Shown: piece after piece, positions 3,787-59,435 of the stretch
Position numbering within the stretch: the stretch's first letter is position 1
Layout of the letters: each line of letters opens with the position of its first letter
NCBI RefSeq assembly: GCF_019703515.2
Contig: NC_059382.1
Location: 14,487,001-14,551,000 of the forward strand
Length of the DNA: 64,000 bases
Direction of reading: 5' to 3'
Source: Myxocyprinus asiaticus
Taxonomy: Eukaryota; Chordata; Actinopteri; Cypriniformes; Catostomidae
Notes under the pieces: model-generated
Database searches by the model: none
Seen by the model: only the letters and a program-made list of their open reading frames with translations
What the model was told of the DNA's origin: nothing
Position numbers and translations under genes: made by a program

Positions 3787-3837
<51 letters not shown>

Positions 3838-33300: not shown

Positions 33301-34505
33301 CAAGTTGGTTGCATCTGGTATTAGGCAAAGGGGCATTCTTATTCTAGAGAGCATTTCATTGGACAAAAAATGTGTGCAGTGCAAGATGAGTCAAGGAGTG
33401 ACTTGGGGAGTACCCAAGCATATAGATTACTTAAAAGCTAATCGACATTGTCTAAAAACCAAAAAAATAAACTTTTAATTTCATGGGGGCTTTAAAAAGT
33501 CAGGCCCTCTGCCTTATTAAAGGAGTAGTTCACCCAAAATTCTCTCATCATTTACTCACCCTCATGCTATCCCAGATGTGTATGACTTTCTTTCTTCAGC
33601 TGAACACAAAGAGTTTTTAAAAGAATATCTCAGCTCTGTAGGTATATACAATGCAAGTGTATGGCGGCCAGAACTTTGAAGCCCCAAAAAGCACATAAAG
33701 GCAGCATAAAAGTAACCCACAAGACTCCAGTGTTTAATCAGTCTTTTGAAGTGATCCAATTAATTTTGGATGAGAACAGATTACAATATAACTACTTTTT
33801 CACTTAAAATCTTGACATCAGCAGTCTCTTTTCAGGCTCAATTTCACTTTCTAGCGCCATCTAGTGCTCTGCACATGCGTCAAGCACTAGGAAGTGTAAT
33901 CGAGCTTGAAATTATGATCGTGCCTAGAGACTGCAATGGCAAGATGTACAGTGAAAATAAAAGTTATATTATGATCTGTTATCACCCAAAACCGATTGGA
34001 TCGCATCAGAAGACATGGATTAAACCACTGGAGTCGTATGGATTACTGTTATGCTGCCTTTGTGCTTTTTGGAGTTTCAAAGTTTTGGTCACCATTCATT
34101 TGCATTGTATGGACCTACAGAGCTGAGATATTCTTCTAAAAATCTTTATTTGTGTTCTGCAGAAGAAAGAAAGCCAAACACATCTTAGGGTGAATAAATT
34201 ATTCGATAATTTTCATTTTTGGGTGAACTATTCTTTCAAGGTTTTTTTATCCGAGCCTAAATCTGTCTTTTTATTGATCTGTTTCACAGAGGCCGGCATT
34301 GGACACAGTGCGCTCCTCTTTGAAGCTCCTGGCAGCCAGTGCCTCCCGTCTACAGGTGGAGTGTCGCAAAGCGGCTCCCTCCGACTCGTCGGCCAACACG
34401 GTGGACTACCAGCTCCTCACCCAGCAGGTCATCCAGTGCGCCTATGACATTGCCAAAGCTGCCAAACAGCTAGTCACCATCACCACCCGTGAAAAGAAAC
34501 AGTGA
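719..34505 (+). CDS. git1: git1, ARF GTPase-activating protein GIT1 (5' part outside window)
   Basis: Eighteen exons join in frame to 691 codons including the stop; each is listed below. Order of domains: second half of the Arf-GAP domain, three ankyrin repeats, Spa2-homology region ([15 protein letters not shown] and [20 protein letters not shown]), acidic [11 protein letters not shown] motif, leucine-rich coiled coil, a divergent linker, and the C-terminal focal-adhesion-targeting (FAT-like) domain ending TTREKKQ. In the family, GIT1 inactivates Arf6, binds PIX through the Spa2 region, dimerises through the coiled coil and binds paxillin through the C-terminus. It acts at focal adhesions, endosomes and synapses. 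Linker and Arf-GAP residues ([30 protein letters not shown]) match GIT1 better than GIT2. Two upstream coding exons (about 62 residues with the Arf-GAP zinc cysteines) are not in the window. Frame is open throughout, so the gene looks intact. Confidence 0.95.
2654..3784 (+). mobile_element. Tc1-like element, internally deleted (copy 1)
   Basis: Terminal inverted repeats: left CTGGCATCCAAAAGTTTGG, right complement CCAAACTTTTGGCCACC. It inserted in a TA-rich stretch, as expected for TA-targeting Tc1/mariner elements: TA before the left end and a (TA)n run after the right end. The transposase start is at 3041. The central catalytic part is missing. Copy 2 of the same family is at 46714-47886. 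Confidence 0.85.
3041..3597 (+). pseudogene. Tc1 transposase, catalytic core deleted (copy 1)
   Basis: Starts [19 protein letters not shown] with a paired-like helix-turn-helix DNA-binding domain ([19 protein letters not shown]). The frame slips near 3211. The sequence then jumps from RHW/TTDNY (about 3475) directly to [13 protein letters not shown], which in intact Tc1 proteins sits near the third catalytic acid. The first two catalytic aspartates are therefore gone. It ends early at VWIFL. Confidence 0.8.
3787..3836. repeat. (TA)n microsatellite
   Basis: About 45 bases of uninterrupted TA repeat right after the Tc1 copy 1 end. It is the likely target of the insertion. Confidence 0.9.
4637..5737. 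mobile_element. hAT-like MITE inside hAT transposase
   Basis: Left GTGGTGCACCGATC and right GATCGGTGCACCCCT are inverted repeats. Flanks share TAGTA/CTACTA-like sequence, a possible imperfect 8-bp duplication. Contents are AT-rich with a T run at 4678-4704 and a stretch of TTAGT/AACTAA motifs at about 4770-5020. It splits the hAT transposase between 4636 and 5738. Confidence 0.7.
5796..7003. mobile_element. hAT-type MITE with perfect 8-bp TSD
   Basis: Ends TAGGGCTGGACGATAT and ATATCACCCAGCCCTA are inverted. An identical 8-bp duplication, GCAGGGAC, lies at 5788-5795 and 7004-7011. ATATCGA motifs are repeated inside each arm. At 5822-5895 it carries a separate fish interspersed fragment beginning TAAATCAAATCAAATCACTT. 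No coding potential. Confidence 0.85.
8256..9834 (-). mobile_element. Sleeping-Beauty-like Tc1 element, full length
   Basis: Left end CAGTTGAAGTCAGAAGTTTA and right end ...TTCTGACTTCAACTG are inverted. TA duplications lie at 8254-8255 and 9835-9836. A second internal copy of the GTCAGAAGTTTACAT motif at 8460-8475 and its counterpart near 9640-9660 give the inner and outer direct repeats of the IR/DR class, known from salmonid and cyprinid Tc1 elements. Length 1579 bp is normal for the family. It carries a broken transposase on the - strand. Confidence 0.9.
8483..9479 (-). pseudogene. Tc1 (Sleeping-Beauty-like) transposase, frameshifted
   Basis: Start [20 protein letters not shown] at 9479, paired-like HTH with [15 protein letters not shown], then GRR and [34 protein letters not shown] and [12 protein letters not shown] (around the first catalytic Asp, which reads Asn in SNE here). 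The C-terminus is [16 protein letters not shown] and stop at 8483. Several frameshifts, mainly 8800-9000 and near 9218, break the frame. The D-to-N reading at the first catalytic position would itself inactivate it. Confidence 0.85.
10322..10857. mobile_element. Right half of outer MITE
   Basis: Non-coding, continuing the outer MITE after the hAT. It contains repeated GCGTTTTC/GAAAACG motifs (10345, 10740, 10760, 10817) typical of a fish short-element family. No gene. Confidence 0.5.
11200..11637 (+). pseudogene. LINE reverse transcriptase C-terminal fragment
   Basis: From 11296 the frame reads [20 protein letters not shown], followed by [19 protein letters not shown] and [20 protein letters not shown]. 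This is the thumb region after the catalytic palm in I/Jockey-type LINEs. The YxDD box would lie upstream and is absent. It ends in a stop at 11635-11637. Confidence 0.75.
11900..12348 (+). pseudogene. LINE RNase H domain
   Basis: Contains [15 protein letters not shown] (with the RNase H glutamate), [14 protein letters not shown] (with the aspartate) and [19 protein letters not shown] (W/GH-x-G and the final D of ADMAAK). The first aspartate strand upstream (SDG-type) is read near 11930 in another frame. The frame stops at 12346-12348. Confidence 0.75.
12392..13706 (+). mobile_element. Sleeping-Beauty-like Tc1, right end deleted
   Basis: Left end CAGTTGGGGTCAGAAGTTTA with a second GTCAGAAGTTTACATACA at about 12593-12612, the left IR/DR. 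TA precedes it at 12390-12391. The right IR/DR is nearly gone: after the transposase codons for CEKLVEG the sequence goes to GTACTGTATATAAACTG, and TA at 13707-13708 follows. It splits the I-clade LINE coding sequence exactly, proving it inserted later. Confidence 0.85.
12770..13690 (+). pseudogene. Tc1 (Sleeping-Beauty-like) transposase, frameshifted
   Basis: ATG at 12770, then frame changes. Blocks recognised: [20 protein letters not shown] (HTH 1), [32 protein letters not shown] (first catalytic Asp present), [20 protein letters not shown] (second Asp present) and [20 protein letters not shown] (third acid, the Glu of IEN). Frameshifts near 12800, 13000, 13290 and 13350 prevent a full protein. 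Confidence 0.85.
13709..14036 (+). pseudogene. LINE C-terminal segment after the Tc1 insertion
   Basis: Resumes the LINE frame with [20 protein letters not shown] and, from about 13839, [17 protein letters not shown], the Cys-x2-Cys...His...Cys end typical of I-type LINE ORF2. A stop within 13830-13840 breaks it. Confidence 0.7.
14785..15676. mobile_element. TTAA-flanked hairpin MITE, copy 1
   Basis: Begins TTAAAGGGATAGTGCACCC and ends GGGTGAATTATCCCTTAA. The two ~300-bp arms are inverted copies of each other (for example ATTTTTGAAGCTCCAAAAAT near 14925-14945 against the mirror at 15490-15510). A TTAA on each side suits piggyBac-type integration; the superfamily is inferred. Ends about 100 bp before the next git1 exon. 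Confidence 0.8.
15772..15877 (+). CDS. git1: git1 exon (end of Arf-GAP domain)
   Basis: Acceptor CCTGCAG, donor GTGAGA. Encodes [20 protein letters not shown] and then [15 protein letters not shown], the last helices of the Arf-GAP unit leading into the ankyrin repeats. Its phase continues from the CA left by the previous exon to make His. Confidence 0.96.
16078..16108. repeat. (TC)n microsatellite before a git1 acceptor
   Basis: About 30 bases of TC, 40 bases upstream of the acceptor at 16148. It forms a long polypyrimidine tract. Confidence 0.9.
16149..16235 (+). CDS. git1: git1 exon (ankyrin repeat 1)
   Basis: 29 codons, phase 0 at both ends; acceptor CCTGCAG, donor GTGAGA. Encodes [29 protein letters not shown], the first ankyrin repeat. 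Confidence 0.97.
16337..16467 (+). CDS. git1: git1 exon (ankyrin repeat 2)
   Basis: Acceptor TCTGCAG, donor GTAACA. Encodes [44 protein letters not shown]. The [10 protein letters not shown] motif is the ankyrin consensus. Confidence 0.97.
16917..17011 (+). CDS. git1: git1 exon (ankyrin repeat 3)
   Basis: Acceptor CTTGCAG, donor GTGAGC. Encodes [20 protein letters not shown] and [11 protein letters not shown]. Confidence 0.97.
17114..17156 (+). CDS. git1: git1 short exon (43 nt)
   Basis: Acceptor TTTGCAG, donor GTACAT. Encodes (D)[13 protein letters not shown](S), conserved between ankyrin repeats and the Spa2-homology region. Confidence 0.95.
18224..18899. mobile_element. hAT-type MITE with near-perfect TSD
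   Basis: Left AAGGGGTGTGAATCTTTG and right TACACCCGTA ends, flanked by ATTGGGAT (18216-18223) and ATTGGAAT (18900-18907), 7 of 8 matching. Contains GATTCA-rich subterminal motifs. Lies in a git1 intron whose other parts (17157-18215, 18908-19456) show nothing recognisable. Confidence 0.7.
19457..19505 (+). CDS. git1: git1 exon (Spa2-homology start)
   Basis: Acceptor GCGTAG, donor GTGAGT. Encodes [16 protein letters not shown], the start of the Spa2-homology domain that binds PIX and MEK1 in the family. Confidence 0.96.
20223..20608. mobile_element. TTAA-flanked MITE
   Basis: Begins TTAAAGGTGCACTCAGTAA and ends TTGCTAAGTGCACCTTTAA: inverted ends with TTAA on both sides. About 386 bp, no coding. 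Lies in the git1 intron 19506-21306, where nothing else is recognised apart from the T run at 21199-21222. Confidence 0.8.
21264..21298. repeat. (TG)n microsatellite directly before a git1 acceptor
   Basis: About 17 TG units end 8 bases before the acceptor AAACAG (21301-21306). It replaces the normal polypyrimidine tract; a T run lies further upstream (21199-21222). Confidence 0.95.
21307..21379 (+). CDS. git1: git1 exon (Spa2-homology region)
   Basis: Acceptor AAACAG after a (TG)n tract, donor GTAATA. Encodes [24 protein letters not shown]. Confidence 0.96.
22047..22144 (+). CDS. git1: git1 exon
   Basis: Acceptor TCTCAG, donor GTAATA. Encodes [20 protein letters not shown] then [13 protein letters not shown]. 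The [18 protein letters not shown] segment fits GIT1 rather than GIT2. Confidence 0.97.
22548..23164. mobile_element. TTAA-flanked MITE with long inverted arms
   Basis: Left TTAAAGTGATATTTTGG..., right ...GAATATTCCTTTAA. Arms of about 70 bp are inverted relatives, sharing ACAAGTTA, TCA and GTGGCATAATGTTG blocks. Lies in the git1 intron 22145-25151; the intervening 23165-24332 shows nothing I recognise. Confidence 0.75.
24333..25058. mobile_element. TTAA-flanked hairpin MITE, copy 2
   Basis: Starts TTAAGGGATAGTTCACCC, ends GGGTGAACTATCCCTTTCAA. Two arms of about 300 bp fold back on each other around a short centre (about 24620-24770). Ends 93 bases before the git1 exon at 25152. Confidence 0.85.
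25152..25263 (+). CDS. git1: git1 exon (second Spa2-homology repeat)
   Basis: Acceptor GTGTAG, donor GTGAGA. Encodes [20 protein letters not shown] then [17 protein letters not shown]. Confidence 0.97.
25419..25546 (+). CDS. git1: git1 exon (acidic motif, Asn run)
   Basis: Acceptor TTTCAG, donor GTGAGG. Encodes [20 protein letters not shown] then [11 protein letters not shown] and [12 protein letters not shown]. The [11 protein letters not shown] motif is a family hallmark with a Tyr/Ser phosphorylation region; the asparagine run is not in the mammalian proteins as I know them. Confidence 0.95.
25786..25960. mobile_element. TTAA-flanked MITE relative, truncated
   Basis: Starts TTAAAGGAATAGTTCACCC followed by a diverged left arm (CTCACTCTCATGCTGTTCC). 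The second arm is missing. A different subfamily from the other copies. Confidence 0.65.
25961..27267 (+). other. git1 intron stretch, nothing recognised
   Basis: AT-rich intron sequence without a coding frame, tRNA or element ends that I can identify. Confidence 0.5.
27277..27730 (-). mobile_element. tRNA-derived SINE, full copy
   Basis: Read on the - strand, the head (27728-27640) resembles a tRNA gene: box A TAGCTCAGC (27718-27710) and box B GAGTTTGAATCC (27669-27658). The body has repeated blocks such as CCTCCGCCACC. The 3' end is an A-rich/T-rich simple tail at 27277-27300. The left flank CAATCAGCG (27268-27276) and right flank CAATCAGCG (27731-27739) are a direct repeat. The mutated tRNA fold makes this a SINE, not a working tRNA. 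Confidence 0.85.
27740..28066 (-). mobile_element. tRNA-derived SINE, second copy, head missing
   Basis: Matches the body of the adjacent copy (GGCGGAGGAC, ACCCCATGTGACTCTACCC, CTAGCAACCGGGCCA) but stops at GACCTGGCTG, before the tRNA head. This is a 5' truncation for a - strand SINE. Flanked by CAATCAGCG at 27731-27739 and 28067-28075. Confidence 0.8.
28988..29458. mobile_element. Short inverted-end element (MITE)
   Basis: Left AAGGCCACGTACACACTGCA and right GTAGTGTGTACTTAGCC are inverted relatives; a GGTTGTCA block occurs on both sides. No coding frame. The region 28076-28987 next to it shows nothing I can name. Confidence 0.5.
29622..29774 (+). CDS. git1: git1 exon (coiled coil)
   Basis: 51 codons, phase 0; acceptor TTTTAG, donor GTACAC. 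Encodes [20 protein letters not shown], then [31 protein letters not shown]. Leucine/valine heptads make the GIT dimerisation coiled coil. Confidence 0.96.
29951..30233. mobile_element. TTAA-flanked MITE
   Basis: Begins TTAAAGCTGAAGTGT and ends ACACTTCAGCTTTAA: 15-base perfect inverted ends including TTAA. 283 bp, no coding; git1 intron. Confidence 0.8.
30465..30746 (+). CDS. git1: git1 exon (Gly-rich linker, SMYEP motif)
   Basis: 94 codons, phase 0; acceptor CCTGTAG, donor GTAAGT. Begins [13 protein letters not shown], continuing the coiled coil, then a glycine-rich stretch ([30 protein letters not shown]), then [12 protein letters not shown], a GIT1 motif, and [10 protein letters not shown]. 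The linker is GC-rich compared with the AT-rich introns. It contains GTAAGG at 30567, a possible internal donor. Confidence 0.93.
30747..31945 (+). other. git1: git1 intron, nothing recognised
   Basis: No repeat or coding match beyond a short GT run at 31410-31424. Mammalian GIT1 has an extra alternatively used segment (ELEDDAIYSVHVPAG) at this point; I do not see its equivalent here. Confidence 0.5.
31946..32023 (+). CDS. git1: git1 exon (linker)
   Basis: 26 codons, phase 0; acceptor TTAAG, weak pyrimidine tract, donor GTGAGT. Encodes [26 protein letters not shown]; the RKG matches the RKGV of mammalian GIT1. Confidence 0.85.
32106..32185 (+). CDS. git1: git1 exon (linker)
   Basis: Acceptor CTCCAG, donor GTGAGT. 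Encodes [27 protein letters not shown]. The GTDSDYDN motif matches the family (phosphotyrosine region). Confidence 0.93.
32803..32967 (+). CDS. git1: git1 exon (start of FAT-like domain)
   Basis: Acceptor GGTAG, donor GTAGGA. Encodes [73 protein letters not shown] opens the four-helix C-terminal domain. Confidence 0.97.
33064..33127 (+). CDS. git1: git1 exon (FAT-like domain)
   Basis: Acceptor TTTGCAG, donor GTAAAT. Encodes [22 protein letters not shown]. Confidence 0.97.
33517..34239. mobile_element. TTAA-flanked hairpin MITE, copy 4
   Basis: Starts TTAAAGGAGTAGTTCACCC, ends GGGTGAACTATTCTTTCAA. Long inverted arms. It ends 50 bases before the last git1 exon. Confidence 0.85.
34290..34505 (+). 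CDS. git1: git1 terminal exon
   Basis: Acceptor TTCACAG; 71 codons plus TGA at 34503-34505. Encodes [20 protein letters not shown] and ends [25 protein letters not shown]: the paxillin-binding end of the protein. Confidence 0.97.
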   Translation, partial: RPALDTVRSSLKLLAASASRLQVECRKAAPSDSSANTVDYQLLTQQVIQCAYDIAKAAKQLVTITTREKKQ

Positions 34506-37040
34506 CCCACCCACCACAGTGGGGTCTGTCGGGCAGGGCATATAGACTGACTGGGAAAGGGAGAGGAGGAAGACACTATACTGAGAAACTGGTGGATGAT
34601 GGAGAAAGGAAGTGACACACCATAGATAGAAAATGAAAGGGCAGATGGACCAGAATGTTGAGTGTTAGAACGGACGAGTAAAACGATGGGTCTAATGATT
34701 GACAAGAAGGAATTATGGGTGATGAAAAGACAGCGAAAGGTCCATGCAGATGTGGCCACCAGGATGCAGAGATGTGGAATGTTTAGGAGAGGCCAAATGG
34801 AGCAGCTTGTTGTTTCATTACACTCCTGTTCATCTTTCTGTTCTGTGTTTTGAGGATTTTCTCTCTTTGACGCGACAATATGGTCTGTTGTTTGCACACA
34901 GACAACTGTCGTGTGGTTGAATTTCTCTGTCACAAACAGACACAAGTACACAAGCACTCCTACCCTCGCCTGGAGAACCACAATATTTCCTCCTGTATTG
35001 TTTTTTGTTTTTTGTTTTCTTCTCTCTCCTGATCCTTTTTGTATTTTTAAGTGCCACTCCATTGGCTTGTTTCTCTTGGGACAGATGTACTGACTTCTAA
35101 ACGAAACAAAATGAAAAACACTGGATTTATTTTAATGTTTATGACTTTTGTTTTGTATTATTGTTATAATTATCATTGTCCTTGATCTTTTATTTTGAAT
35201 TTTGTTTATTTGGATTATCAGTTTTGTTTAAGTGGAAATCATGCTGAGCTTTGAGAACATTTAACAGGGGTGAACAATAACCTGTTAAACTTAAGCAAAA
35301 CTCTCCCGTCCTCCAGTGTAAAAACACTGGTTCACTCGCAGTGTTTTACTATGTATACTAATTTTGTTTGTCAAAATGTGTTGAACACTAGCCAAAGGAA
35401 CAGAGGGGAGTGAAGACACTACTGTTGCGGATCCCTCTATTTTCTGCGAGCACAAAAACAATGGTTGGGGGTAATTTACGGAAAAGGCTAGCCAGTTCAC
35501 CCTGGCGGAGAGACAGACGGCCCTAGCTCCTCTCATCTCATCTCAACGCCTACATTAGTGGGTTTTTGATCAGTACAATGCAAACGTGTTGGCACAATCA
35601 CCACATTCTTTTCCTCTCCAATTATTAAGGTGGGAAACAAGCCGTTTTATTAAAGACCACCACTACTGGACATCTCTTCTTTCTTTTCTGCACATAAACT
35701 TAATTGACGATTCATCTAATAGCCTTCTTCATTAGCTTAGTGGAGTTAACAACTTTTTAATAAGGACTCTTCCATTCTGGACCAGATTTGTTTTGTTTTT
35801 TTGTTTTGTTTTGTTTTTGTGGTGGTTTTTGTTTTCCATTTGAAAATATTTGCTCTCTGGAGTATTCATGCCTCATGCATTATAATATTTCCTGTTTTAG
35901 ATTGTTTTAATCAATGCATATATGTAGTTAATGTTTATTGATGTAAAATGACCCTTACTATGTTCTATAAGCTACAAGCATGTGAATGTTGATGGTTGAA
36001 GATGACCACTATCAATGTTCTCTTCACTAACATTTCAGTTGCAGTCACAGGGAAAACGAAGATGTCCAACCACTGCATCAGGACCAGTGAACTTTTGTTG
36101 GAGGAATATAGTTGTTCAGAACTAAACTCTGTTGATTTTCAAGGGAGAGGAGTTGAACTGGAGCTTCCAATATGTACGCACACAGATACAAATTTTTCCA
36201 AAGTGAGGCTTGATACCACATCTGCGTTCAAGCCTCATCAAATTAAGTGTTAATTTGAAGAATCCCATCTCAAACTACAAGCCTTAAAACTATGTTGTTG
36301 TTCTTCATATCTGTTCTTTTACTTCCCCTACCAGCCTTAAGTTAAACCATTTTTGTTCATGCCTTTTGTTCTTTTGTTTAACTTTTTCAATATGGTGTAT
36401 GGGATAATGTTAACGTCCCCCAAAATGTGTCAAAAAGATTGTCTAAAAATCTATGATCATTGCCTTTGCACATCTGCGAGACAGTAATTACACAGTAATT
36501 TTGTGAATGCATTTCTTCCACACTAGAAGCACACGGTGAGTAAAAGCGTAGTGGAGGTTTTATTTTTTCCAGATTTTTGTTTTTCCAGTAAATATGTCAG
36601 GATGGTCACTAGGGAATGGTTTATTATGTGATCATTGATATTGGGAGAAAGACCTTTGGCCATTCTTAAATAAGCACTAAATTTAGAAGTGTGTGGGAGA
36701 GGGCGTAATTGCACATTATGGATGTTTTCCCACTCATTCTGCTGTGAATGCATACTTTGCTCACGCATTGCACCAGTAAATTAATTTCTTTAAATTAATA
36801 CACACACACAGGACCACTGTTCTGTAATACGGTTATACTAGTAGTTGCACTGTACTTGTAATGACTGTTCTCTGATATCATACAGTTCTTACATGAGAGA
36901 TCAGCTGATGGGAGAAATTCTTTTAGTAGAGGTTACCTATAAAAAAAAAAAAGAAATTAAAAGACAAAGTAAAACCATTTAAATCGTAATAAAGACTCGC
37001 AAGCTGTACATTTGTAATCAATAAATGGAAAAACTGGATT
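34506..37040 (+). other. git1: git1 3' UTR
   Basis: About 2.5 kb after the stop, T-rich, without coding frames. AATAAA signals at 36988-36993 and 37020-37025 probably mark the end. The piece at about 36656-36712 (TTTGGCC..., AAGCACTAAATTTAGAAGTG, GGGAGAGGG) recurs many times in the downstream array. Confidence 0.75.
37020..37025 (+). terminator. git1: Candidate git1 polyadenylation signal
   Basis: AATAAA, with another at 36988-36993. It is the last pair before the satellite-like array begins at about 37150. Confidence 0.6.
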
Positions 37041-37205
37041 GTTTCTTGTGAATCATTCTTTGTTTTGGGAGTTAAATCAGATAGTGGAATTATTGCAGAA
37101 CAGGAAAAGATCTGTATTAATCTCCATTGTATTTGGCTTTTTCATCTGTCAAGTTACTTAGACATTTAAAAAGAAGCTAACAAGTTACTTTGAAAATTAA
37201 AAGTA

Positions 37206-38190
37206 CAGTTGCAATCAAAATTATTCAACCCCCCCCCTGACCAGCAATACATTGTGGTGATGTGAATTAAAAAACATCAACTAAAACCTCAGTAAACAGA
37301 CAAAGTAAGTTTTTAAAACACATTTGAGTGATTTTGAGAACAAAGAGTTCAATTTACCCACATTTTTAATAAAATAACTAATTCTCTCCACAAGTGTCAT
37401 GTCAAAAATATTCAACCCCCAACATCAAACATTTGTGGAGCATCCTTTATCCTTAATAACAACAAATAAATGTTTTAGGTAAGTGTTCTCAGGCTTCGGA
37501 CACCTCTCTATTAGAATTTTTACAAATTTCTCATGAGCAAAAGCTTCCAGCTCATTGACATCCTTTGGTTTCTGTGCTGTCACTGCTTCCTTGAAATCCC
37601 AACAAAGGTTTGCAATGGGATTTTAATTATGGACTGAAAGGGCCATTCAAGGACATTCCATGACCCATCCCTGAACCAGATTTTAGACAACTTGGAAGTA
37701 TCCTTGGTGTTATTGTCTTGCTGGAAATTCCAGTGATCACAGAGCTTCAATTTACAAACTGAAGGCATCACATTTTTCATGCCAAAATGGCCTGTAATGA
37801 AATAATCTTCTCTATTAGCCTTTGAGACAGCTTATTTTTAATTGCATTTTTTGCATAGAAATACATTTTTGCTTACAACGCCTAAACTTACATTTTAAAA
37901 CTTGAGTGCCATTGCAGATTGACAATTTTGTTTTAAAACAATTACTTGTGTAGCCTTACATATTTAAGAAACAGCTACATGCAATAGGGGTTGAATAATT
38001 ATGACATGGCTTTATTTTTTAAAAATCCTGTTATTTACAAATATTAGGTTATATATTCACACTACGACTTTGAATGTGTCACTCAACTGATATAGATGTA
38101 AAGTTAAAAAAATTCTCTGTCATCAGAAAAGCTTAACTTTGTAAATCCTTACTGTCTTGGGGGGGGGTTGAATAATTTCAATTGCAACTG
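37206..38190 (-). mobile_element. Tc1-like relic inserted in the array
   Basis: Ends CAGTTGCAATCAAAATTATT and ...AATTTCAATTGCAACTG are inverted, with TA at 37204-37205 and 38191-38192. A transposase piece on the - strand (37780-37580) reads HWNFQQDNNTKDTSKLSKIW and then GSWNVLEWPFQSI, the second-aspartate region of Tc1 transposases. The rest of the gene is deleted. Confidence 0.85.
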
Positions 38191-38852
38191 TAACTAGAAA
38201 GTTGCTTTGACATTTAAAAAGTAGCTAACAAGTTACTTTGAAAAATAAAGAGGAACAAGTTACTTTGGGGGAAAATAACTAGAGAGTTCCTTTGAAAAAT
38301 AAAAAGTAACTAGCAAGTTACTTTGGAAAATAACAAGTAACTATTAAGTTAGTTTTAAAATAAAAAGTAACTATCAAGTTTCTTTGTTGTAAGTTTGTAT
38401 TTGATAAGCACTTAATTCAGATGTGAAGAGAGGAAGTCACTGCAAGAAAATTCTTTAATTTGAAAAATAAAAACTAACTAGTGAGTTACTTCGAAAAATA
38501 AATAGTAACTAGCAAGTTACTTGGACATTTAAAAAGTAACTACCAAGTTACTTTGAAAAATAAAAAGTAACTAGTGAGTTACTTCGAAAAATAAATAGTA
38601 ACTAGCAAGTTACTTTGAAAAATTTAAAGTAACTAGCAAGTTACTTAGAAAAATAACAAGTAACTAGTGAGTTACTTTGAAAATAAAAAGTAACTAACAA
38701 GTTACTTTGAAAATAAAAAGTAACTACTGAGTTACTTTGAAAAATAAAAAGTAACTATCAAGTTACTTAGGAGTCATTGCAAAAAAATACTTTGTTTGAA
38801 ATATAAATAGTAACTAGCAATTTGCTTTGCTATATAAAAAGTAACTAGCAAG

Positions 38853-39256
38853 TGCTTATTTCTGTTGTTATTTTAGCTTTTTATTTGCTTTGCTAATTTG
38901 GTTGTGGTGTGCACTTCTCGGCCACAGCACCTTTGATATATAAAAAGTACCTAACAAGGTACTAACAATTTACTTTGATATATTAAGTATAACTATCAAT
39001 TTATTTTGCTAATTTTACTTTGCTCTCCAGGTTCGGACTCAGTAATACAGGGCTGATGAACACTGGTGTCTTTTCCGTTTTCCTGTAGTGCTTCACATTT
39101 GATTTAAAGATGGCCTTGCATGACTTCATGATGTGTTTTGTGATGGTTAATCCCAGCTCTTCAGACTTGCTACACTATATTTGCATCTCAAGCTAATTTG
39201 AACAGGCATAGAACTCTCGCAATGTCTCATTAAGGACAACAGCAGAGTAGATGCAT
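38853..39256. repeat. Higher-order block, copy A
   Basis: Runs from GCTTATTTCTGTTGTTATTT to GAGTAGATGCATAAA. Copies B (39890-40293) and C (41524-41929) are nearly identical with small indels. Contains TTCGGACTCAGTAATACAGG. It does not itself contain the 31-bp unit except at the edges. Confidence 0.85.
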
Positions 39257-39889
39257 AAATAACTATCAAGTTACTTTGAAAAATAAAAAGTAACTAGCAA
39301 GTTACTTTGTTATAAGTTTGTGTTTGATAAGCACTTAATTCAGAAGTGTATGGGAGAGGGAGTCATTGCAAGAAAATTCTTTGAAATATAAAAAGTAACT
39401 AGCAATTCACTTTGCTATATAAAAAGTAACTAGTAAGTTACTTTGATGTATACAAGCATTAAAAGATCTGTGGCCTATACTAAATAAGCACTAAATTCAG
39501 AAGTGTATGGGAGAGGGAGTCATTGCAAAAAAATTCTTTACTTTGTTTAAAAAATAAAAAGTAACTAGTGAGCTACTTCGAAAAATAACAAGTAACTATT
39601 AAGTTACTTAAAAAAAATAAAAAGTAACTACTGAGTTACTTTGAAAATAAAAAGTAATTAGTGAGTTACTTTGAAAAATAAAAAGTAACTATCAAGTTAC
39701 TTAGACATTTAAAACGTAACTAACAAGTTACTTTGATGTATATTAGCATTAAAATAACTTTGGCCAATGTTAAATAAGCACCAAATTCAGAAGTGTATGG
39801 GAGAGGGAGTCATTGCAAAAAAATACTTTGTTTGAAATATAAAAAGTAACTAGCAATTTACTTTTCTATATAAAAAGTAACTAGCAAAT

Positions 39890-40293
39890 GCTTATTTCTG
39901 TTGTTATTTTAGCTTTTTATTTGCTTTGCTAATTTGGTTGTGGTGTGCACTTCTCGTCACAGCACCTTTGATATATAAAAAGTACCTAACAAGGTACTAA
40001 CAATTTACTTTGATATATTAAGTATATCTAACAATTTACTTTGCTAATTTTACTTTGCTCTCCAGGTTCGGACTCAGTAATACAGGGCTGATGAACACGT
40101 GTCTTTTCCTTTTTCCTGTAGTGCTTCACATTTGATTTAAAGATGGCCTTGCATGACTTCATGATGTGTTTTGTGATGGTTAATCCCAGCTCTTCAGACT
40201 TGCTACACTATATTTACGTCTCAAGCTAATTTGAACAGGCATAGAACTCTCGCAATGTCTCATTAAGGACAACAGCAGAGTAGACGCATAAAT
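39890..40293. repeat. Higher-order block, copy B
   Basis: Nearly identical to copy A, with a 2-base loss (GAACACGTGTC where A has GAACACTGGTGTC) and a missing base in the G/T run. Confidence 0.85.
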
Positions 40294-41523
40294 AACTATG
40301 AAGTTACTTTGAAAAATAAAAAGTAACTAGCAAGTTACTTTGTTGTAAATTTGTGTTTGATAAGCACTTAATTCAGAAGTGTATGGGAGAGGAGTCATTG
40401 CAAGAAAATTCTTTACTTTGTTTGAAAAATAAAAAGTAACTAGTGAGTTACTTCGAAAAATAAATAGTAACTAGCAAGTTACTTGGACATTTAAAAAGTA
40501 ACTACCAAGTTACTTTGGAAAATAACAAGTAACTATTACGTTACTTTGAAAATAAAAAGTAACTAGCAAGTTACTTTGTTTTAAGTTTGTGTTTGATAAG
40601 CACTTAATTCAGAAGTGTGTGGGAGAGGGAGTCATTGCAAGAAAATTCTTTACTTTGAAATATAAAAAGTAACTAGCAATTCACTTTGCTATATAAAAAG
40701 TAACTAGTAAGTTACTTTGCTTTATTCAAAGTAACTAACAAGTTACTTTGATGTATACAAGCATATACTAAATAAGCACTAAATTCAGAAGTGTATGGGA
40801 GAGGGAGTCATTGCAAGAAAATTCTTTACTTTGTTTAAAAAATAAAAGTAACTAGTGAGCTACTTCGAAAAATAAAAAGTAACTAGCAAGTTACTTGGAC
40901 ATTTAAAAAGTAACTAAGAAGTTACTTTGCTGTATAAAAAGTAACTAGTAAGTTACTTTGCTTTATTAAAAGTAACTAACAAGTTACTTTGATGTATACA
41001 AGCATTAAAAGATCTTGGCCTATACTAAATAAGCACTAAATTCAGAAGTGTATGGGAGAGGGAGTCATTGCAAGAAAATTCTTTACTTTGTTTAAAAAAT
41101 AAAAAGTAACTCGTAAGTTACTTTGGAAAATAAAAAGTAACTACTGAGTTACTTTGAAAAATAAAAAGTAACTAGTGAGTTACTTCGAAAAATAACAAGT
41201 AACTATTAAGTTACTTTGGAAAATAAAAAGTAACTATTAAGTTACTTTGAAAAATAAAATTAACTAGTGAGTTACTTTGGAAAATAAGTAACTATTAAGT
41301 TACTTTGAAAAATAAAAAGTAACTATCAAGTTACTTAGACATTTAAAACATAACTAACAAGTTACTTTGATGTATACTAGTATTAAAATAACTTTGGCCA
41401 ATGTTAAATAAGCACCAAATTCAGAAGTGTATGGGAGAGGGAGTCATTGCAAAAAAATACTTTGTTTGAAATATAAAAAGTAACTAGCAATTTACTTTGC
41501 TATATAAAAAGTAACTAGCATGT

Positions 41524-41929
41524 GCTTATTTCTGTTGTTATTTTAGTTTTTTATTTGCTTTGCTAATTTGGTTGTGGTGTGCACTTCTCGTCACAGCACC
41601 TTTGATATATAAAAAGTACCTAACAAGGTACTAACAATTTACTTTGATATATTAAGTATAACTATCAATTTATTTTGCTAATTTTACTTTGCTCTCCAGG
41701 TTCGGACTCAGTAATACAGGGCTGATGAACACTGGTGTCTTTTCCGTTTTTCCTGTAGTGCTTCACATTTGATTTAAAGATGGCCTTGCATGACTTCATG
41801 ATGTGTTTTGTGATGGTTAATCCCAGCTCTTCAGACTTGCTACACTATATTTGCGTCTCAAGCTAATTTGAACAGGCATAGAACTCTCGCAATGTCTCAT
41901 TAAGGACAACAGCAGAGTAGATGCATAAA
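41524..41929. repeat. Higher-order block, copy C
   Basis: Nearly identical to copies A and B, with one extra T in the CCGTTTTTCC run. Followed by decayed units and a different repeat fragment (CAGCCAATCAGAATTGAGTA). Confidence 0.85.
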
Positions 41930-42235
41930 CATCAAACAGTTAATAAAACTGACTGGAACTACCTGTGCATTAAATGGTTTTAACACTTACATTCCAGCCA
42001 ATCAGAATTGAGTATTAAAAAATGTTGATGTACACTATCAAGTTACTTTGATATATAAAAACTAAGAAGTTACTATTTTCTTTGATATATAAAATAAACT
42101 AACAAGTTACTTTGATGTATACTGGTAAGTTACTTTGATATGTAAAAATAAACTAGAAAATTACTTTGATATTAAAAAATAAAATAACAAGTTACTAACA
42201 ATGTACTTTGATATATTAAAAGTAACCATTTGCTT

Positions 42236-42270
<35 letters not shown>

Positions 42271-42290
42271 TTATATACACACACACAGTA
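42236..42290. repeat. (GT)n(TA)n(CA)n microsatellite
   Basis: Mixed dinucleotide tract at the decayed end of the array. Confidence 0.85.
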
Positions 42291-42340
42291 ACTAACAAGA
42301 TACTTTGATATAAAAAAGTAACTAACAAGAACCATCTGAC

Positions 42341-44431
42341 GCAAAACAAAGTTCATTCAAATCATTTAACACACAACTCGCCATGGATTATCTTGCTTAT
42401 ACCATGGTCTTTAGCCAACATTGATTAGTTAAAGCTGCCATTGATTTTTGCAGTGCAAATTTAAACTGGAACAATAAAATGGTTAATAAAATGGTTAACT
42501 TTATCTATGGGTCGTTAGAACTAGAGTTCTACCTGTTCTAAATCAAACGCAAAGATCAAGTAGTAACATAAGATTACTTTTATTTGACTGAATTAAACAT
42601 CCCCATTTCCGTTGGGAAAGTATGGAAAACGCTAATAAAAACAAAAAGCAGTGCTTTATAAATTCTATTCACCATGTGCTATATTGAAAGCACTACAACA
42701 ACACATTATCTGATGTTTTACACAATTGTTTTATTTTTGAAAATATACAATATAAACTAATTTCTAATCAGATGATTGCAACACACTCCCAAAGAAACTG
42801 GGACAGTCGAGTGCTTACCACTGTGTATCACCATTTCTTCTAATAACACTTAAGCATTTGGGCACTGAAGACACAAGTTTAAGTTTTGCAAGCGGATTTT
42901 CCACCATTATGCAGGCCAGAAGCACGATTGTATGGGGCTTTCAGTGTCATATATTGCACTTCATAATGTGGCACACATTCTCAATTGGAGACAGGTCAGA
43001 ACTGCATGCAGGTCAATCAAGCACCCGCACTCTCTGCAGGCGTTGTCCTGCTGGAAAATGCAGGGAAGTCCCCAGTAAAGACAGCGTCTGAATGGCAGTA
43101 TATGTTGCTCCAACATTTTTACATATCTTTCTGCATTAATGGTGCCCTAATAGATGCGCAAGTTATCAATGCCATGGACACTGACACACCCCCATACCAT
43201 GACAGACACTGGCTTTTGGACCTGAAGCTGAAAACAGCTTGGATGGTCCTTTTCCTCTTTGGTCTAGAGAACACAAAAGATAATGATATCCTCATTATCA
43301 CCACCCACCACACTGGCCCATACCAAAAAAAAAAACAAAAAAAAAAACTGCCACAAATAATATACATTCTTTTTAATGTCATTCATTTCAGATCATGAGG
43401 CATAATTAAGAAATTACATTTACAATGTATCCAAATCCAGTAAACAGTGTTATATCCAAAGGACAAAGTGGAACAGAACAGCAAAATACTGTTTGAACAA
43501 TTCAGTTCATAATTAAGCCTCATATGACAGCGGCATAATGCATAGCTCAAAACATGTACAAACACATCTCCAATATGACTTTTCGCAACATGATATTAAA
43601 CTCTCCATATATTCCTGTAAACCTTGTTGATTTGATTATCGTAAACCTGCTAATATCACACTATTAAGATTCAGTCCTTTCAAATTTACAAAAAGACCTG
43701 AGAAAAGTGTGACCGAGCTGTAACCCTCCATTACGATAAACCTCATAAGAGGCAGTTTCATTGAGTACGAATTTAAAAAATATATATGCCAAGGGTGGAA
43801 ACACCTGTTGGAGAAACATGTAAACATGTTAACATGCTGGTGATACAAGTAGTGAGGGAATATTCAAAACACGTAAGTGCTGCTGTTCGTCAACTTGTTC
43901 AACAAAAATGCGAACAGAAAATAGGTAAAGACTATGGAGACACTTTCAAAATAAAAGCTTGCAGACATGGCAACACAGTGGGCTGAAGAAAATATTAGTG
44001 TAAAAAACACCTCTGAGGTTTAGCATTTTGTTGCTACACCTCCTTGGTACAGGTGTGAAGAACAGAGAAACTATACTGGAGTGGAGCTTGAGGAGAGAGA
44101 GAGAGAAAGAGAGAGAGCAGCCAATTATACTGCAAAGACTCTCTCCAATACTGCTGCTGTTTGGACAGCATCTAAAAATACAAGGATGACAAAAGAAATT
44201 GAGAGATAAATGTTTAGGTAAATACAGAGATAAACACGGTTTACTACAGTTTAGGATATTCCCTATTGCACATGTCTAATAAGCAGAATGTTCCAATCAC
44301 ACAAAAAAAGGACATTTGAGCCATTGGCCAGTGTTGAGTGGGCGGGGCTCTTGGAACGTCCCTTGTGAGAGAAGCAGTTATTCCTACCAGATATAATAAA
44401 AAAGCACAGCTGTACTCGTTATTCACAAACC
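42341..44431 (-). other. pitpna: pitpna 3' region, end undefined
   Basis: Lies beyond the stop of the - strand gene. The 3' UTR must start at 44431; a possible polyadenylation signal (AATAAA on the - strand) is at 42735-42730, but an older repeat covers 42760-43300, so the true end is uncertain. 43300-44431 contains no element I recognise, with a purine-rich GAGA run at about 44095-44118. Confidence 0.5.
42760..43300 (-). mobile_element. Tc1-like transposase remnant
   Basis: On the - strand 43057-42930 reads QDNA, then (S)DLSPIENVCHIMKCN, the third-acid block (D...PIEN) of Tc1-type transposases. Frames are broken; ends are not identifiable. Confidence 0.65.
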
Positions 44432-44479
44432 TTATTCATCTGCTGCAGACATTCCTTTTACTGGATCCTTCTCTCGCAT
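44432..44479 (-). CDS. pitpna: pitpna terminal coding exon (48 nt)
   Basis: Acceptor ATCAATAG, 15 codons [15 protein letters not shown] then TAA (44434-44432). It lies 3.9 kb from exon 10, with transposons between. Matched by the conserved KDPVKGM C-terminus. Confidence 0.88.
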   Translation of the reverse strand: MREKDPVKGMSAADE

Positions 44480-47400
44480 CTATTGATATAACAAAGGAAA
44501 GAAGTTTAAATCACCTTTATTCATACAATCAACACCATTGATTTTCAAACATTTTAAATCCTCATAAAAAAATCTGCAATAATAACGGCACATCAAGTGT
44601 AACGTTAAAATAAAAAACATACTACATACACTTTTATTCGTAATCTTAAAAATATAAATGATAAATTAAACATTTAAAATAAGCTCTTCTTCATAAATAC
44701 AACATAATACTTCTCCAAAACCTCAATTTTCTTAAAATGTTGTCAAATCTCCAACCAATTCATAATTCAATTCTCAGTCTATTTGCAAAGAATCCCCTCA
44801 ACATAGTCTCTGCATCTACTCCACCCGTTCCCAGTTCTTTTTCTCTTAGTTTTCCAGGTTGCTAGTTTAGGTGTACCCAAAAAATAATTCAGCAGACAAA
44901 GTATAGCCTTTTTTGAAGCTCTATATTTTTCCCCTCCAATAAAAATACTTTCAGAAAACTCTTCACTGAGACCCTCAAACCACCTTGTCAATAACTTAAA
45001 AAGCTCTTCTAATCATGCACATTCCACTGTCTCCTCCTGGTCTCATTTATGAAACACGAACACAATGAATTTTGTTAATCCTTCATAAAACAAAGCAAAA
45101 ATCAATGTAAGAATATATATTGTACACAAATTCGTTCTGCATGCCTGTGAATCGGTCTCCATCATGGGATTTCAAAGTGTCTAAAAGGACTTGTTTCTTG
45201 TTTTACTCACCCATTTTCAATATTTAATGGGGTTTTATTGTGCAAATGTTATCCGTCCTATTTATTGTATCTATTGGTGTTTTAACTCTCTCATTTTAAC
45301 TCATTCTTTTGGATTTATTCAAAGATTTTCTATTTAAGAATGGGTTAATTTGATTTAAATAATGGTATGTTCCTATCAAAAAAGGCGGGAAAATTTCCCT
45401 ATTTAACCCAGCCGCCACTAGGGGAGAGGAAGAAAAGTTAGACAATGAATGTTTGGAGCACATGGACAAGGTTGCTAGCACTGCTTGAGCCCACTATACT
45501 CCGGCCTCCATAGTTTAGGGAGGGGAGTTGGTACTGCTCTTAGTACCAAAAACAGGGCTAGTTTTTAGAGTAGTTTCTTTTTTTTCATGTAACCTTGTTT
45601 TTATGATTGCTTTTAAACACTATTTATTTGCCCATTTTGCACCTCTAATGGATTAAACATCTTTTTGGAATGCCAATGCTTCTCTCTGGTGTGATTCTCC
45701 TTGTGACTGTCTTGGTCCCCATCACAATGCCTTTCATGAATGAGGCCCATTGAACGAACTGTACCTCCGTCCCTTACAGCCTCATTTTTGTTCATCAAAT
45801 TAAAAAACGGTACTCTGACTAAAATCTAATAGTATCATTAACAAGGATTTGTATATACTGTACTGCATAAACCTGATCATAAATGATTGTGGTGAACACT
45901 AGAGGTCTACCGATGTGGATTTTGCAGATACAGTTAATTAAGATGGTGGAAAAGACAGGCGGTTTTAAAAATCGATTTTTTATAGAATGTTAAATAAATG
46001 TCTCAGTCTTTCTTTACTATACCGGGCACAGACATAGACGCTACAAGCGGCCAAATGAATAAAATCCCAGATGCAGTTTATTGTTCAACCAAAATCCCAA
46101 TAAACCAGAAACAATTCAGATTTGGTGCATATTACAGGACTTTTAACTATAAACGAGCCCGAAACACACTGAGGACTCTTGGCTCAATAACCATGATCTA
46201 TTTAGTTAGGCTATTTACCAAATTAAGCTTTTTGCAGCCTATATATTCACCAGATGAAGGGTTTTGTATATGAACGGGGTAAAACAAAAAAAAAAAAAAC
46301 AGGGCCACTATGTTTGATTGCTCATATCTTAAAAAATGCATAAAGGTGTTTTTGGCGTACTTCTATGACTTTTTGTAAACAACAAATTATGTCACTGTGA
46401 CGTTATCGTGAGCAACCACTTACTACAAATAAATAAGCAAATCATTTAGCCAAGTTTTCAATGGCAGCAAATTTAGATGCTCTTTCGCCATGTGGCCCCA
46501 TTTTTTGGGGGGAGCCAAACGATTTATTTATTTGAACAAGTTGTTACTCACAATGACGTCATTACACTGTTGACAAAAATTTGTAGAAGTATGGCAAAAA
46601 TCGTGCAAATGCCTTTATACATTTTTAAGATATGAGCAATCAAACATAGTGGCCCTGGTTTTTTTTGGGGCCAACCTGTATATGTACACTATATATATAT
46701 ATATATATATATACACTGGTGGCCAAAAGTTTGGAATAATGTACAGATTATGCTGTTTTGGAAGGAAATTGGTACTTTAATTCACCAAAGTGGCATTCAA
46801 CTGATCACAAAGTATAGTCAGGACATTACTGATGTAAAAAACAGCACCATCACTATTTGAAAAGTCATTTTTGACCAAATCTAGACAGACCCCATTTCCA
46901 GCAGCCATCACTCCAAGAAAATCGGTACTAGAAAATCACTTGCCATTATATCAAACACAGTTGAAAGCTATTTGGTTCGTTAAATGAAGCTTAACATTGT
47001 CTTTGTGTTTATATTTGAGTTGCCACAGTATGCAATAGACTGGCATGTCTTAAGGTCAATATTAGGTCAAAAATGGCAAAAAAGAAACAGCTTTCTCTAG
47101 AAACTCGTCAGTCAATCATTGTTTAGGAATGAAGGATATACAATGCTTGAAATTGCCAAAAAACTGAAGATGTCATACAAAGGTGTACACTACAGTCTTC
47201 AAAGGACAACTGTCTCTAACAAGGACAGAAAGAGATGTGGAAGGCCAGATGTACAACTAAACAAGAGGATGAGTACATCAGAGTCTCTAGTTTGAGAAAT
47301 AGCTCACATGTCCTCACCTGACAGCTTCATTGAATTCTACCTGCTCAACACCAGTTTCATGTGCAAGAGTAAAGAGAAGACTCAGGGGTGCAGGCCTTAT

Positions 47401-50400
47401 GGGAAGAATTGCAAAGAAAAAGCCACTTTTGAAACAGAAAAACAAAAAGAAAATGTTAGAGTGGGCAAAGAAACACAGACATTGGACAACAGATAATTGG
47501 AAAAGAGTGTAATGGATCTTAACCCCATTGAGCTTTTGCGGGATCAGCTAGACTGTAAGGTGCATGAGAAGTGCCTGACAAGACAGCCACATCTATGGCA
47601 AGTGCTACAGCAAGCGTGGGGTGAAATGTCACCTGAGTATCTGGACAAACTGACAGCTAGAATGCCAAGGATCTGCAAAGCTGTCATTGCTGCTCGTGGA
47701 TGATTTTTTTATGAGAACTCTTTGAAGTAGTTGAAATTGTTTTTCAAATTGTAATAGTAATTTTTCATGTTATTAATGTCCTGACTATATATTGTGATCA
47801 ATTGAATGCCACTTTGATGAAAAAGTACCAATTTCTTTCCATAAGAGCAAAATCTGTACATTATTCGAAACTTTTGGCCACCAGTGTATATATATATATA
47901 TATAAAAAACAAATGGTTTAATGGGATATAAGTTTTATTATCATCCACAAGATATGAAGTTAAGACACAATGTGTGGTGATTAGTCACTTTTTTTCTTTT
48001 TTTTTTTTTTGCGCATGCCCTCGCTTCAATTAAGAACACTTGATTATCTAATCGAAATAACAAATACGCATTGAAGGGAGTATAAAAACATATATGAATA
48101 TTGTCAATCGCCAGCCACTTAGGAACACAGAGAAATAATAATAATTTAAAAAAAACATATCAGCAACTATTAGTGTCAATGTTTGCTAACCATTAGCTCC
48201 AAAAAGCAACTATCAGCACTGATTAATCTGTAAAACCAATATTTCAGTCTACCTCTAGTAAACAATGCTGGCATTACTACATGTAACAATTTAAAAAACA
48301 ATGAGTATTAAAAAAGTATTTCAATGACTTAAGTACCAAAAGTGCTAAAATAACTCACATTATCAAGTTCTTTCTGTGTCTCCTCCTCCATACGACGAAT
48401 GTCCTCCATTGTCAGACCTATCCATTTGTCTAACCAGCAGAAGAGTTGCCTGTGGAAGTTGGTGAACAGTCGCTTCTCTTGCTGAAGTAAAAACCAAAAC
48501 AAACAATGTTTCAGGAGTCACATGGACGTCTTTTTTAAACCAACATTACAAATAGAACCATTAATGGAGCGCCACTGAAACAGCTGCACAAAAGCCACGC
48601 CCTGCAATAAAATGAACAAACACTAACTGTTTATCTTTCTACACTACTCCTCTGTGCAATATCACAGACACTCTGTTGACACAAAATTGAGTCAAACTAA
48701 ACACAGCATTGAATACATCACATAGTTTTATACCTTCTGGATGAATCCTTCCACCTTGTTCTGCAAGCCAAACCATTTGAATTTGACAGTGACTAGTTTA
48801 TAGGCACACATATGAGGGCAATCTGTCTTCTGAGGAAGCTCTTTCTGCAATACAGACACAAAACAGTCAACAATCATCTCCAAGACTACAGAAATGTAGC
48901 TATAAATCTAGAAGAACAAACAGTAAAACAAACCATATACACACCTTCCAGTCAGATCCTAATGGCCCTCTTCCAGTCTTCTGTGATTTAAACGTGGCTG
49001 GATCTTCATCTGGTTTGTAGTCCTGTTAAGGTAGTTCAAAAGTGGGTCAAAAGTGTCAGTGGGTCTCAAAGTAGAACAAAAACATAAATCTGTTTCCTAA
49101 ATGTCTTTTTGTGATGCATCTAAAGTAAAAACTCTATATTTCTTACTTTAGTCTCCACCTGAGACCTGTCGGCAATGTCAATGTGTACTACCTCCACCTT
49201 CTTCCACTGCTCTGGGTCAAGTTTATGAACCTTCGAAACAAACAAATCAAAGAGAAAGAATAAGCACTAAGTAATCAAAACATATTGTTTTTTTGCATAT
49301 GACAATGCAGTGTAGTGTAATTGTTTCCTACATTATCATGGTTAAAGGGATTGTTCACCCAAAAATGAAAATTCTCTCACCATTTACTCACCCTCACGCC
49401 ATCCCAGATGTGTATGGCTTTCTTTCTTCAGTAGCACACAAGCGAAGATTTTTAGAAAAATATCTCCGCTTTGTTGGTCCATACAATGCAAATGAATGGT
49501 GATCACATAAAGGAAACATAAAAAGTAATCCATATGACTCCCGTGTTTAAATCCATATTTTTAGAAGCAATATAACAGGTGTAGGTTAGAAAATTAATAT
49601 TTAAGTGATTTTTTACTCTAAATCTCCACTTTAACTTCACTTTCAGATGTGAAAGTGAAAATAAACAGGCACCACATGTGACTCTTAAATGTAAAAGTGA
49701 AAGTGGAGATTTACAGTAAAAAAAAAAAAAAAGGACTTAAATTTGTATCTGTTTCTTACCTACACCTATTATATCACTTCTGAAGATATGGATTTAACTA
49801 TTGGAGCCTTATGGATTACTTTTATGTTTCATTTATGTGACTTTTGGAGCTGCAAAGGTCTGGTCACAATTCACTTGCATTGTGAGAACATACAGAGCTG
49901 AAATATTCTTCTAAAAATCTTTGTTCTGCTGAAGAAAGAAAGTCATACACATCTGGGATGACATGAGGGTGAGTAAATGGTGAATTTTCATTTTTGGGTG
50001 AACTATCCCTTTATTCAGAGTTTAATGACATTATGTCTGCTGGATACTCACATTTTCCTGTTCACCGAGGTCAGGCTTGTGCCACGTCTCAATCATGACT
50101 AGAAAATTGTCCTTCATGTACTCATTCTACAAGCAAGACACACACACACAATGTATGTTACTTGTACAGTTACTTGTAACTTCTACAGTACAAATTCACA
50201 CAATTCTGGGATTTTTCATAATGAACTCCCACTAGATTGCAGGGCCATTCACACTCTGTGCTGTGTTTCTAATTGATTTTCTATGTAAACATGCGCTAGA
50301 AGGACACCTTTGACTGTTGTGCGGCATCTTGTTTTGATTTTCAGTGCCTTGGACACTGTGTCAAGTTAAAAGAACATCCTGCATTCTGTTCCATTTGTTG

Positions 50401-58891: not shown

Positions 58892-59435
58892 ACCAAAAAA
58901 GTTAAATTCTCTTATCATTTACTCACCCTCATGCCATCCCAGATGTGTATGACTTTCTTTCATCTGCTGAACTCAAATGAAGATTTTTAGAAGAATTTCT
59001 CAACTCTTTTGGTCCATACAATCCAAGTGAATGGATGCCAACATTTTGAAGCCCCAAAAATCACATAAATCAGCATTAAAGTAATCCATACAACTCTAGT
59101 GGTTAAATCAATGTCCTCAGAAGCGATATATTACATGTTGGTGAGAAACAGATTCATATTTAAGTCCTTTTTTTACAATAAATTCCCCTCCCTGCTCAGT
59201 CAGTCTACACTTTAACTTTCACATTCTTCTTCTTGTGTTTTTGGTGATTCACATTCTTCATGCATATCGTCCCCTACTGGGCAGGGAGGAGAATTTCTAT
59301 CAAAAAAAGGACTTAAATATTGGTTTTTCTCACCCACACCTATCAAATCACATCTGAAGATATGGAATGAAATAGTGGAGTCGTTTGGATTTATTTTATA
59401 CTCCCATCATGTGCTTTTTAAAGTGTCAAATTGTA
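58892..59435. mobile_element. TTAA-type hairpin MITE, copy 8, eroded
   Basis: Left arm CTTATCATTTACTCACCCTC, ATGCCATCCCAGATGTGTAT and a partial right arm (TCGTTTGGATTTATTTTATA...). Terminal bases are lost on both sides. Confidence 0.7.

Follow-up and report, generated by a model that had tools for sequence, protein, structure and literature searches.

Complex (higher-order) minisatellites are built of short tandem units and have degenerate edges, a homogeneous interior and block duplications, whereas satellite DNA consists of tandem head-to-tail units, organized in higher-order blocks, at thousands of loci. We analyzed an array of palindromic units located at positions 37150-42340 of a 64,000-nucleotide stretch of Myxocyprinus asiaticus DNA (NC_059382.1, positions 14,487,001 to 14,551,000; hereafter the window), between the convergent genes git1 and pitpna. 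With complex minisatellites the array shares a unit of tens of base pairs (bp), the tandem arrangement at one ancestral intergenic place, the degenerate edges, the homogeneous interior and the block duplications. It departs from them in that the unit itself is palindromic, the array is common to two duplicated loci and the blocks include a dispersed repeat as well as a segment captured from the 3' end of a gene. Satellite DNA has the same head-to-tail tandem units and higher-order blocks; here, however, two loci were found instead of thousands, and the array, ~4 kilobases (kb) in size, lies between genes. We consider it likely that the array is a minisatellite private to this locus, which is old, has decayed at the duplicated locus and was amplified in blocks here, and for which no selected function is required.

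The interval contains ~31-bp units by the dozen, with the core GTAACT-N4-AGTTAC. Tandem Repeats Finder revealed higher-order periods as well as arrays of period 31, within the range of roughly 10-100 bp of minisatellite units; these were located at 38190-38853, 39379-39446, 39546-39736, 40421-40578, 40650-40757, 40844-40992, 41091-41370 and 42127-42196. All 34 exact-arm palindromes of the window (GTAACT and AGTTAC separated by 0 to 8 bases) fall within the interval, and so do 70 of the 88 fuzzy cores, in which up to 3 substitutions were allowed; 100 first-order Markov sequences built from the interval contain 5.1 on average and 11 at most. When the array was parsed by core position, 34 of 82 successive core-to-core distances were exactly 31 bp. 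With 67 cores listed by hand, the palindromic units account for 38% of the interval (1,981 of 5,191 bp); the rest is shared out among a Tc1-like insertion (984 bp, or 985 by its exact ends), three segments designated U (1,209 bp) and spacers plus tail (1,017 bp). The array of tandem palindromic units in higher-order blocks is therefore real, as a first-pass annotation of the window had described it.

Long similar blocks are visible in the self-alignment of the array. Three of them follow one another on the plus strand, each closing with a ~404-bp U segment: block A (38191-39258) is composed of units, an S spacer, units, a truncated S and U1; block B (39259-40291) of units, three S copies and U2; and block C, the longest (40292-41929), holds five S copies and U3. 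Blocks B and C are 94.4% identical by substitutions, and A is 87% identical to B and C (MAFFT alignment). The left edge of the array (37150-37205, plus strand) consists of two degenerate units with cores parsed at 37142 and 37173, and the right edge (42031-42340, plus strand) of degenerate units that keep an older linker, TGATATATAAAAA; the array interior carries the linker TGAAAAATAAAAA. Searches with the exact unit pattern gave no matches in viral_contigs and none in genome_contigs, and no description of the array was found among the titles and abstract openings listed; by title, none of the five papers found on git1 with pitpna dealt with their intergenic region.

The near-identical ~400-bp blocks claimed in the first-pass annotation correspond to the U segments. 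U1 (38856-39259), U2 (39892-40292) and U3 (41526-41929), all on the plus strand, are 98.0% (U1-U2), 98.3% (U2-U3) and 99.3% (U1-U3) identical by substitutions, with two gap events per pair. The left part of a dispersed repeat at 41693-42016 (plus strand) was amplified as a component of U. Further copies of this repeat, ~80% identical, lie at 37 places elsewhere in the genome among the best 40 of 859 candidates scored. Seven of nine fetched loci of this repeat align unbroken past the edge of U3 (41929) and end between 41967 and 42023; of the remaining two, one continues beyond the edge solely through a separate piece in inverted orientation, whereas the other ends at 41906. U1 and U2 have one new junction to a unit in common. 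Because the repeat runs on to ~42016 beyond U3, this copy is probably the initial insertion, from which U1 and U2 would derive as shortened copies. U was also considered as a captured coding exon. This was rejected: a minus-strand frame is open for 57 amino acids in U1 and frame-shifted in U2 and U3, no Pfam family at E 1 and no homologous protein were found, and the region is the dispersed repeat.

The spacer S has a 42-bp core, present in nine array copies, one truncated copy and one copy outside the array. The array copies, all on the plus strand, lie at 38406-38447 (shortened), 39329-39370, 39486-39527, 39776-39817, 40362-40403, 40598-40639, 40774-40815, 41031-41072 and 41410-41451. The copy outside (36648-36713, plus strand), a single-copy relative in the 3' end of git1 that is 86% identical to the array S (E 1.65e-15), is read as the putative progenitor.

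We searched the 2.34-Gb genome (345 contigs, the window belonging to contig C39) with a 316-bp query of units. All seven first-look candidates were scored and gave 21 matches, 15 in the array itself and six on contig C31 between positions 29,263,458 and 29,266,432. In this search, which skips very common words, the units were found at two places in 2.34 Gb, in keeping with the confinement of minisatellites to one or few loci, and the abundant long arrays at many sites of satellites were not seen, only two intergenic loci. The label "satellite-like" given in the first-pass annotation is not supported; the thousands of unrelated loci that would have made the location unremarkable did not appear in the same search. 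The fetched 20-kb region of C31 (29255000-29274999; L033) proved to be a duplicated git1-pitpna locus in reverse orientation, with the order of the window preserved: pitpna exon region, last exon and untranslated region, array, git1 3' end and git1 exons. It is 79-84% identical to the window with gaps; by substitutions, five stretches give 88.6-90.0%. The duplicated git1 flanks diverge by 11.3% (249 of 2,199 aligned bases, substitutions only). Since an array sits between the same genes in both, it existed before the two git1-pitpna copies separated. We infer that the locus was duplicated along with the whole genome.

The C31 array has decayed, with three exact palindromes left in 5.1 kb. It has the linker TGATATATAAAA in common with the right edge of the window array. 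Among hand-picked units (17 of 44 C31 cores, seven of the right edge and 29 of the interior), the C31 arms show a mean match of 0.86 with one of 17 exact; for the interior units of the window, the mean match is 0.99, and 24 of the 29 are exact. The consensus of the same 17 C31 units, which were chosen by their likeness to the core, equals that of the interior at 14 of 14 arm positions and differs at one loop base. A BLAST search of S against the 20-kb C31 region found only a copy in the git1 flank, 89% identical to the array S, and none inside the C31 array; the dispersed repeat 41693-42016 gave no match in the region. Because S is present in the git1 flank of both loci, either the C39 array acquired it or the C31 array lost it, and movement from the git1 3' end is the simpler explanation. 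Duplications have also occurred on C31 itself; among them, the git1 flank 36886-37148 is present a second time at L033 positions 8667-8904, 75% identical to the window and on the pitpna side of the array. The interval has therefore been rearranged at both loci, with flank capture at both. Beyond what the first-pass annotation had noticed, the array is thus old and shared with a duplicated locus, has taken up a dispersed repeat together with sequence from the 3' end of git1, and is split by a Tc1-like element.

Recent amplification, supposed earlier from the near identity of the blocks, is supported. The U copies differ at 0.7-2.0% of aligned bases and the duplicated git1 flanks at 11.3%; with equal rates, the amplification would fall in about the final 7-18% of the period that has passed since the loci separated, although gene conversion could mimic a younger age. 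Unit similarity was compared in 34 units whose next unit begins exactly 31 bp on (28 of them distinct, from a list of 56). Adjacent units are 81.2% alike (17 pairs), versus 80.4% for all pairs, and identical units, which fall into five sets, are separated by 1.27-2.42 kb, one pair at 0.41 kb excepted. As neighbours are no more alike than other pairs and identical units are distant, the recent steps copied blocks and not single units.

A likely history can be proposed on these grounds. A ~31-bp palindromic unit with the linker TGATATATAAAAA was already present in tandem between the convergent git1 and pitpna genes before duplication of the locus. After the duplication onto two chromosomes, the C31 array decayed, while on C39 the git1 3'-end segment S and the dispersed repeat would have entered the array and been co-amplified, and the unit type with the linker TGAAAAATAAAAA would have spread. 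Blocks of ~1.0-1.6 kb would then have been duplicated, by unequal exchange or replication-based duplication, to give three higher-order copies; the three-block structure is evident in the alignments, and the molecular step behind it is one that we infer. The A+T-rich palindromes probably assist through hairpins on single-stranded DNA. Such hairpins, suggested in the first-pass annotation, are indeed predicted by folding of single-stranded pieces (z -5.3 and -6.0 for 93-nucleotide pieces, -4.4 for one of 94 and -2.0 for one 31-nucleotide unit). The Tc1-like element inserted in an edge unit and split the array. The duplicated loci constitute a natural pair, in which one ancestral palindromic array decayed at one place and was re-amplified at the other. 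The likely single-copy sources of the captured pieces are still recognizable, so that the sequence of steps by which a minisatellite is rejuvenated can be read, and comparison of the two gene pairs within one cell could test whether convergent transcription is affected.

Several observations weigh against this history. In the C31 region that was fetched, nothing matches the flank on the pitpna side (42345-43296), and the co-location of the arrays therefore rests on gene order and the git1 side, not on both sides base by base. The unit search skips very common words and may overlook decayed arrays, and the basis is a single assembly, in which an error in copy number is possible. The motif AATAAA occurs 31 times on the git1 strand versus seven on the other in 4,205 bp of array. 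Finally, the mean entropy of the arms is 0.19 bits versus 0.72 bits for loop and linker in the 28 distinct 31-bp units mentioned above (Mann-Whitney p 0.0009, an optimistic value because positions and units are not independent), and such low arm variability is not expected of a purely neutral unit.

The strand bias could reflect a fail-safe zone for 3'-end formation, in which git1 read-through transcripts would be cleaved at polyadenylation (poly(A)) signals of the array before colliding with pitpna. The AATAAA excess favors this idea, as 100 dinucleotide shuffles averaged 10.4 motifs (maximum 18) on the git1 strand and 5.2 (maximum 11) on the other; the motif is created by the interior linker. 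We scored sites by an ad hoc count of the GT-rich stretch that follows AATAAA. Four of the 31 array sites combine AATAAA with a GT-rich element, all of them copies of one arrangement on the plus strand: 38359-38413 (score 18), 39282-39336 (17), 40315-40369 (18) and 40551-40605 (19). The predicted git1 site itself scores 19, the 60 other plus-strand AATAAA in the rest of the window score 16 or less, the four account for four of the nine sites with 17 or more among 185 AATAAA on both strands, and 300 Markov arrays average 0.19 such sites (maximum 3). A further point in its favor is that yeast poly(A) sites are enriched in nearby inverted repeats (PMC6420913); those repeats are, like ours, A+T-rich and near gene 3' ends, but they are mapped genome-wide, whereas here one private array lies beyond the predicted site. 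However, all four sites go back to a single one by copying, and their count represents a single event amplified; the other 27 array sites score 4-12, the array mean (9.0) being near the background (8.5). Four minus-strand sites elsewhere in the window also reach 17 or more, with a top score of 22 at 57569. The homeologous C31 array is unbiased (AATAAA 8 versus 11 in 3,060 bp, where Markov sequences average 6.2 and 5.7) and does not conserve the poly(A)-like cluster, S being there only in the git1 flank. With neither the bias nor an array S on C31, a fail-safe role could exist only as a gain here or a loss there, and it is unlikely. Very unlikely is the fuller version, in which an old minisatellite would have been rebuilt after the duplication into a de novo git1-strand termination zone in one homeolog only; if true, the raw material of such a zone, an array of poly(A) signals, would have been the captured 3'-end sequence of git1, together with a change of the linker that gave many units an AATAAA.

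A second alternative, put forward in the first-pass annotation, is that the array arose by tandem expansion of a transposon end, that at 52455-52475, which belongs to an element (52330-52476) that we take to be hAT-like. The unit and this end have an 8-base wording, AGTAACTT, in common by eye. There is also a precedent, since the foldback transposon Tetris can seed satellites (PMC4079207); both cases involve inverted-repeat-rich DNA amplified in tandem, but here no dispersed parent element was found. When five units were compared with this element, however, the best alignment was 32 bp long with 72% identity (E 1.2). Matches a little stronger than this, though not convincing, exist elsewhere in the window, the best with E 0.009 at 28381-28430, and the unit query yielded no third locus in the genome. 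Exact-arm palindromes are absent from a non-random control of 51,480 bp, made of 16 loci fetched for other repeats, which lacks the CAGTGTTGGG end and cannot test the element itself. The proposed origin is thus weakened by these comparisons and seems improbable.

That a constraint on the arms, as a protein site or a required hairpin, maintains the units is very unlikely: the arms are conserved while the loop is hypervariable, and the C31 consensus arms equal those of the window interior, though the C31 units were picked by core likeness, but none of 40 changed arm cells (of 348) is compensated in the 58 units of periodic runs (of 69 cores, chosen by core similarity and then 30-32-bp spacing), the arms have decayed on C31, and template-switching homogenization can keep arms without selection (PMC8604942). 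Upkeep of the hairpin by compensatory change was rejected on the same count of changed cells. In all 69 cores, 5 changes are complementary versus 56 broken, and the 5 are all in U copies and represent at most two independent events. A double arm change, GTACCT..AGGTAC, keeps the palindrome and was inherited by all three U copies (38947-38964, 39982-39999 and 41616-41633); it would be the expected product of arm-correcting template switching (PMC8604942). A comparable C31 unit reads GTAACT..TGTTAC. We do not read arm conservation as selection. Loop inversion, the other sign of template switching, was rejected as well, since no two of the 13 loop types in 56 units are reverse complements of each other.

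Concerning the flanking genes, the last coding exon of git1 lies within an open reading frame (ORF) stretch at 34278-34505 (plus strand), with the stop codon at 34503-34505. It matches Pfam GIT1_C (6.3e-14), and this C-terminal domain matches GIT1 chains in PDB (best E 2.7e-29). The putative last coding exon of pitpna, with 15 residues and a stop, is located at 44432-44479 (minus strand); its wording fits the C-terminus of PITPNA. The pitpna ORF with the preceding exon (48329-48517) matches IP_trans in Pfam (2.1e-15) and PITP alpha in PDB (1.1e-20). From the git1 stop to the array start there are 2,645 bp, and from the array end to the pitpna stop 2,092 bp. A predicted git1 poly(A) signal, AATAAA, with a GT-rich stretch downstream, was located at 37020-37025 (plus strand), and by eye a similar arrangement is present at the duplicated locus. 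Two candidate pitpna signals, AATAAA at 42579 and 42730, lie at 42579-42735 (minus strand). The array therefore sits between predicted transcript ends. The first-pass annotation had placed it exactly between the 3' ends of the two genes: convergent ends do flank it, but what adjoins it are predicted poly(A) signals and not the coding ends. On the minus strand, an ORF at 42961-43146, in the stretch that separates the array from the pitpna stop, has only a Pfam match below the cut-off and none in PDB; its wording is reminiscent of Tc1 transposase, which neither database confirmed. Rfam gave no matches in the window at the gathering threshold.

The insertion that interrupts the array (37206-38190, minus strand), which we take to be Tc1-like, lies within a unit arm. 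It has the ~32-bp inverted ends and the flanking TA on both sides that are characteristic of Tc1/mariner-like elements, but the array, which it breaks up, did not arise from it. Its right part is present at 39 other places of the genome among the best 40 of 1422 candidates scored. A transposase domain was looked for in two of its ORF pieces with no significant Pfam match, and the domain may be decayed. The element shows a 68-bp match to C31 (73.5%, E 3e-5).

Other repeats are present nearby. A dispersed foldback-like family, which matches itself on both strands and has ~300-bp arms, occupies at least nine places in the 64 kb: 14785-15677, 24335-25056, 33517-34239, 49342-50013, 51005-51691, 53428-53795, 54412-54696, 58892-59419 and 63217-63836. 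A member is present near git1 on C31 too. Two ~1.2-kb elements (2635-3824 and 46692-47904), 86-88% identical and with ~170-bp inverted ends, include one in the last intron of pitpna; one ORF in them has a weak helix-turn-helix match, below the cut-off. Finally, an inverted pair (8541-9836 and 12390-13684) is 85% identical over 1.3 kb, and a third copy of this element lies on C31 (L033 positions 6842-8412), between two pieces of the array.

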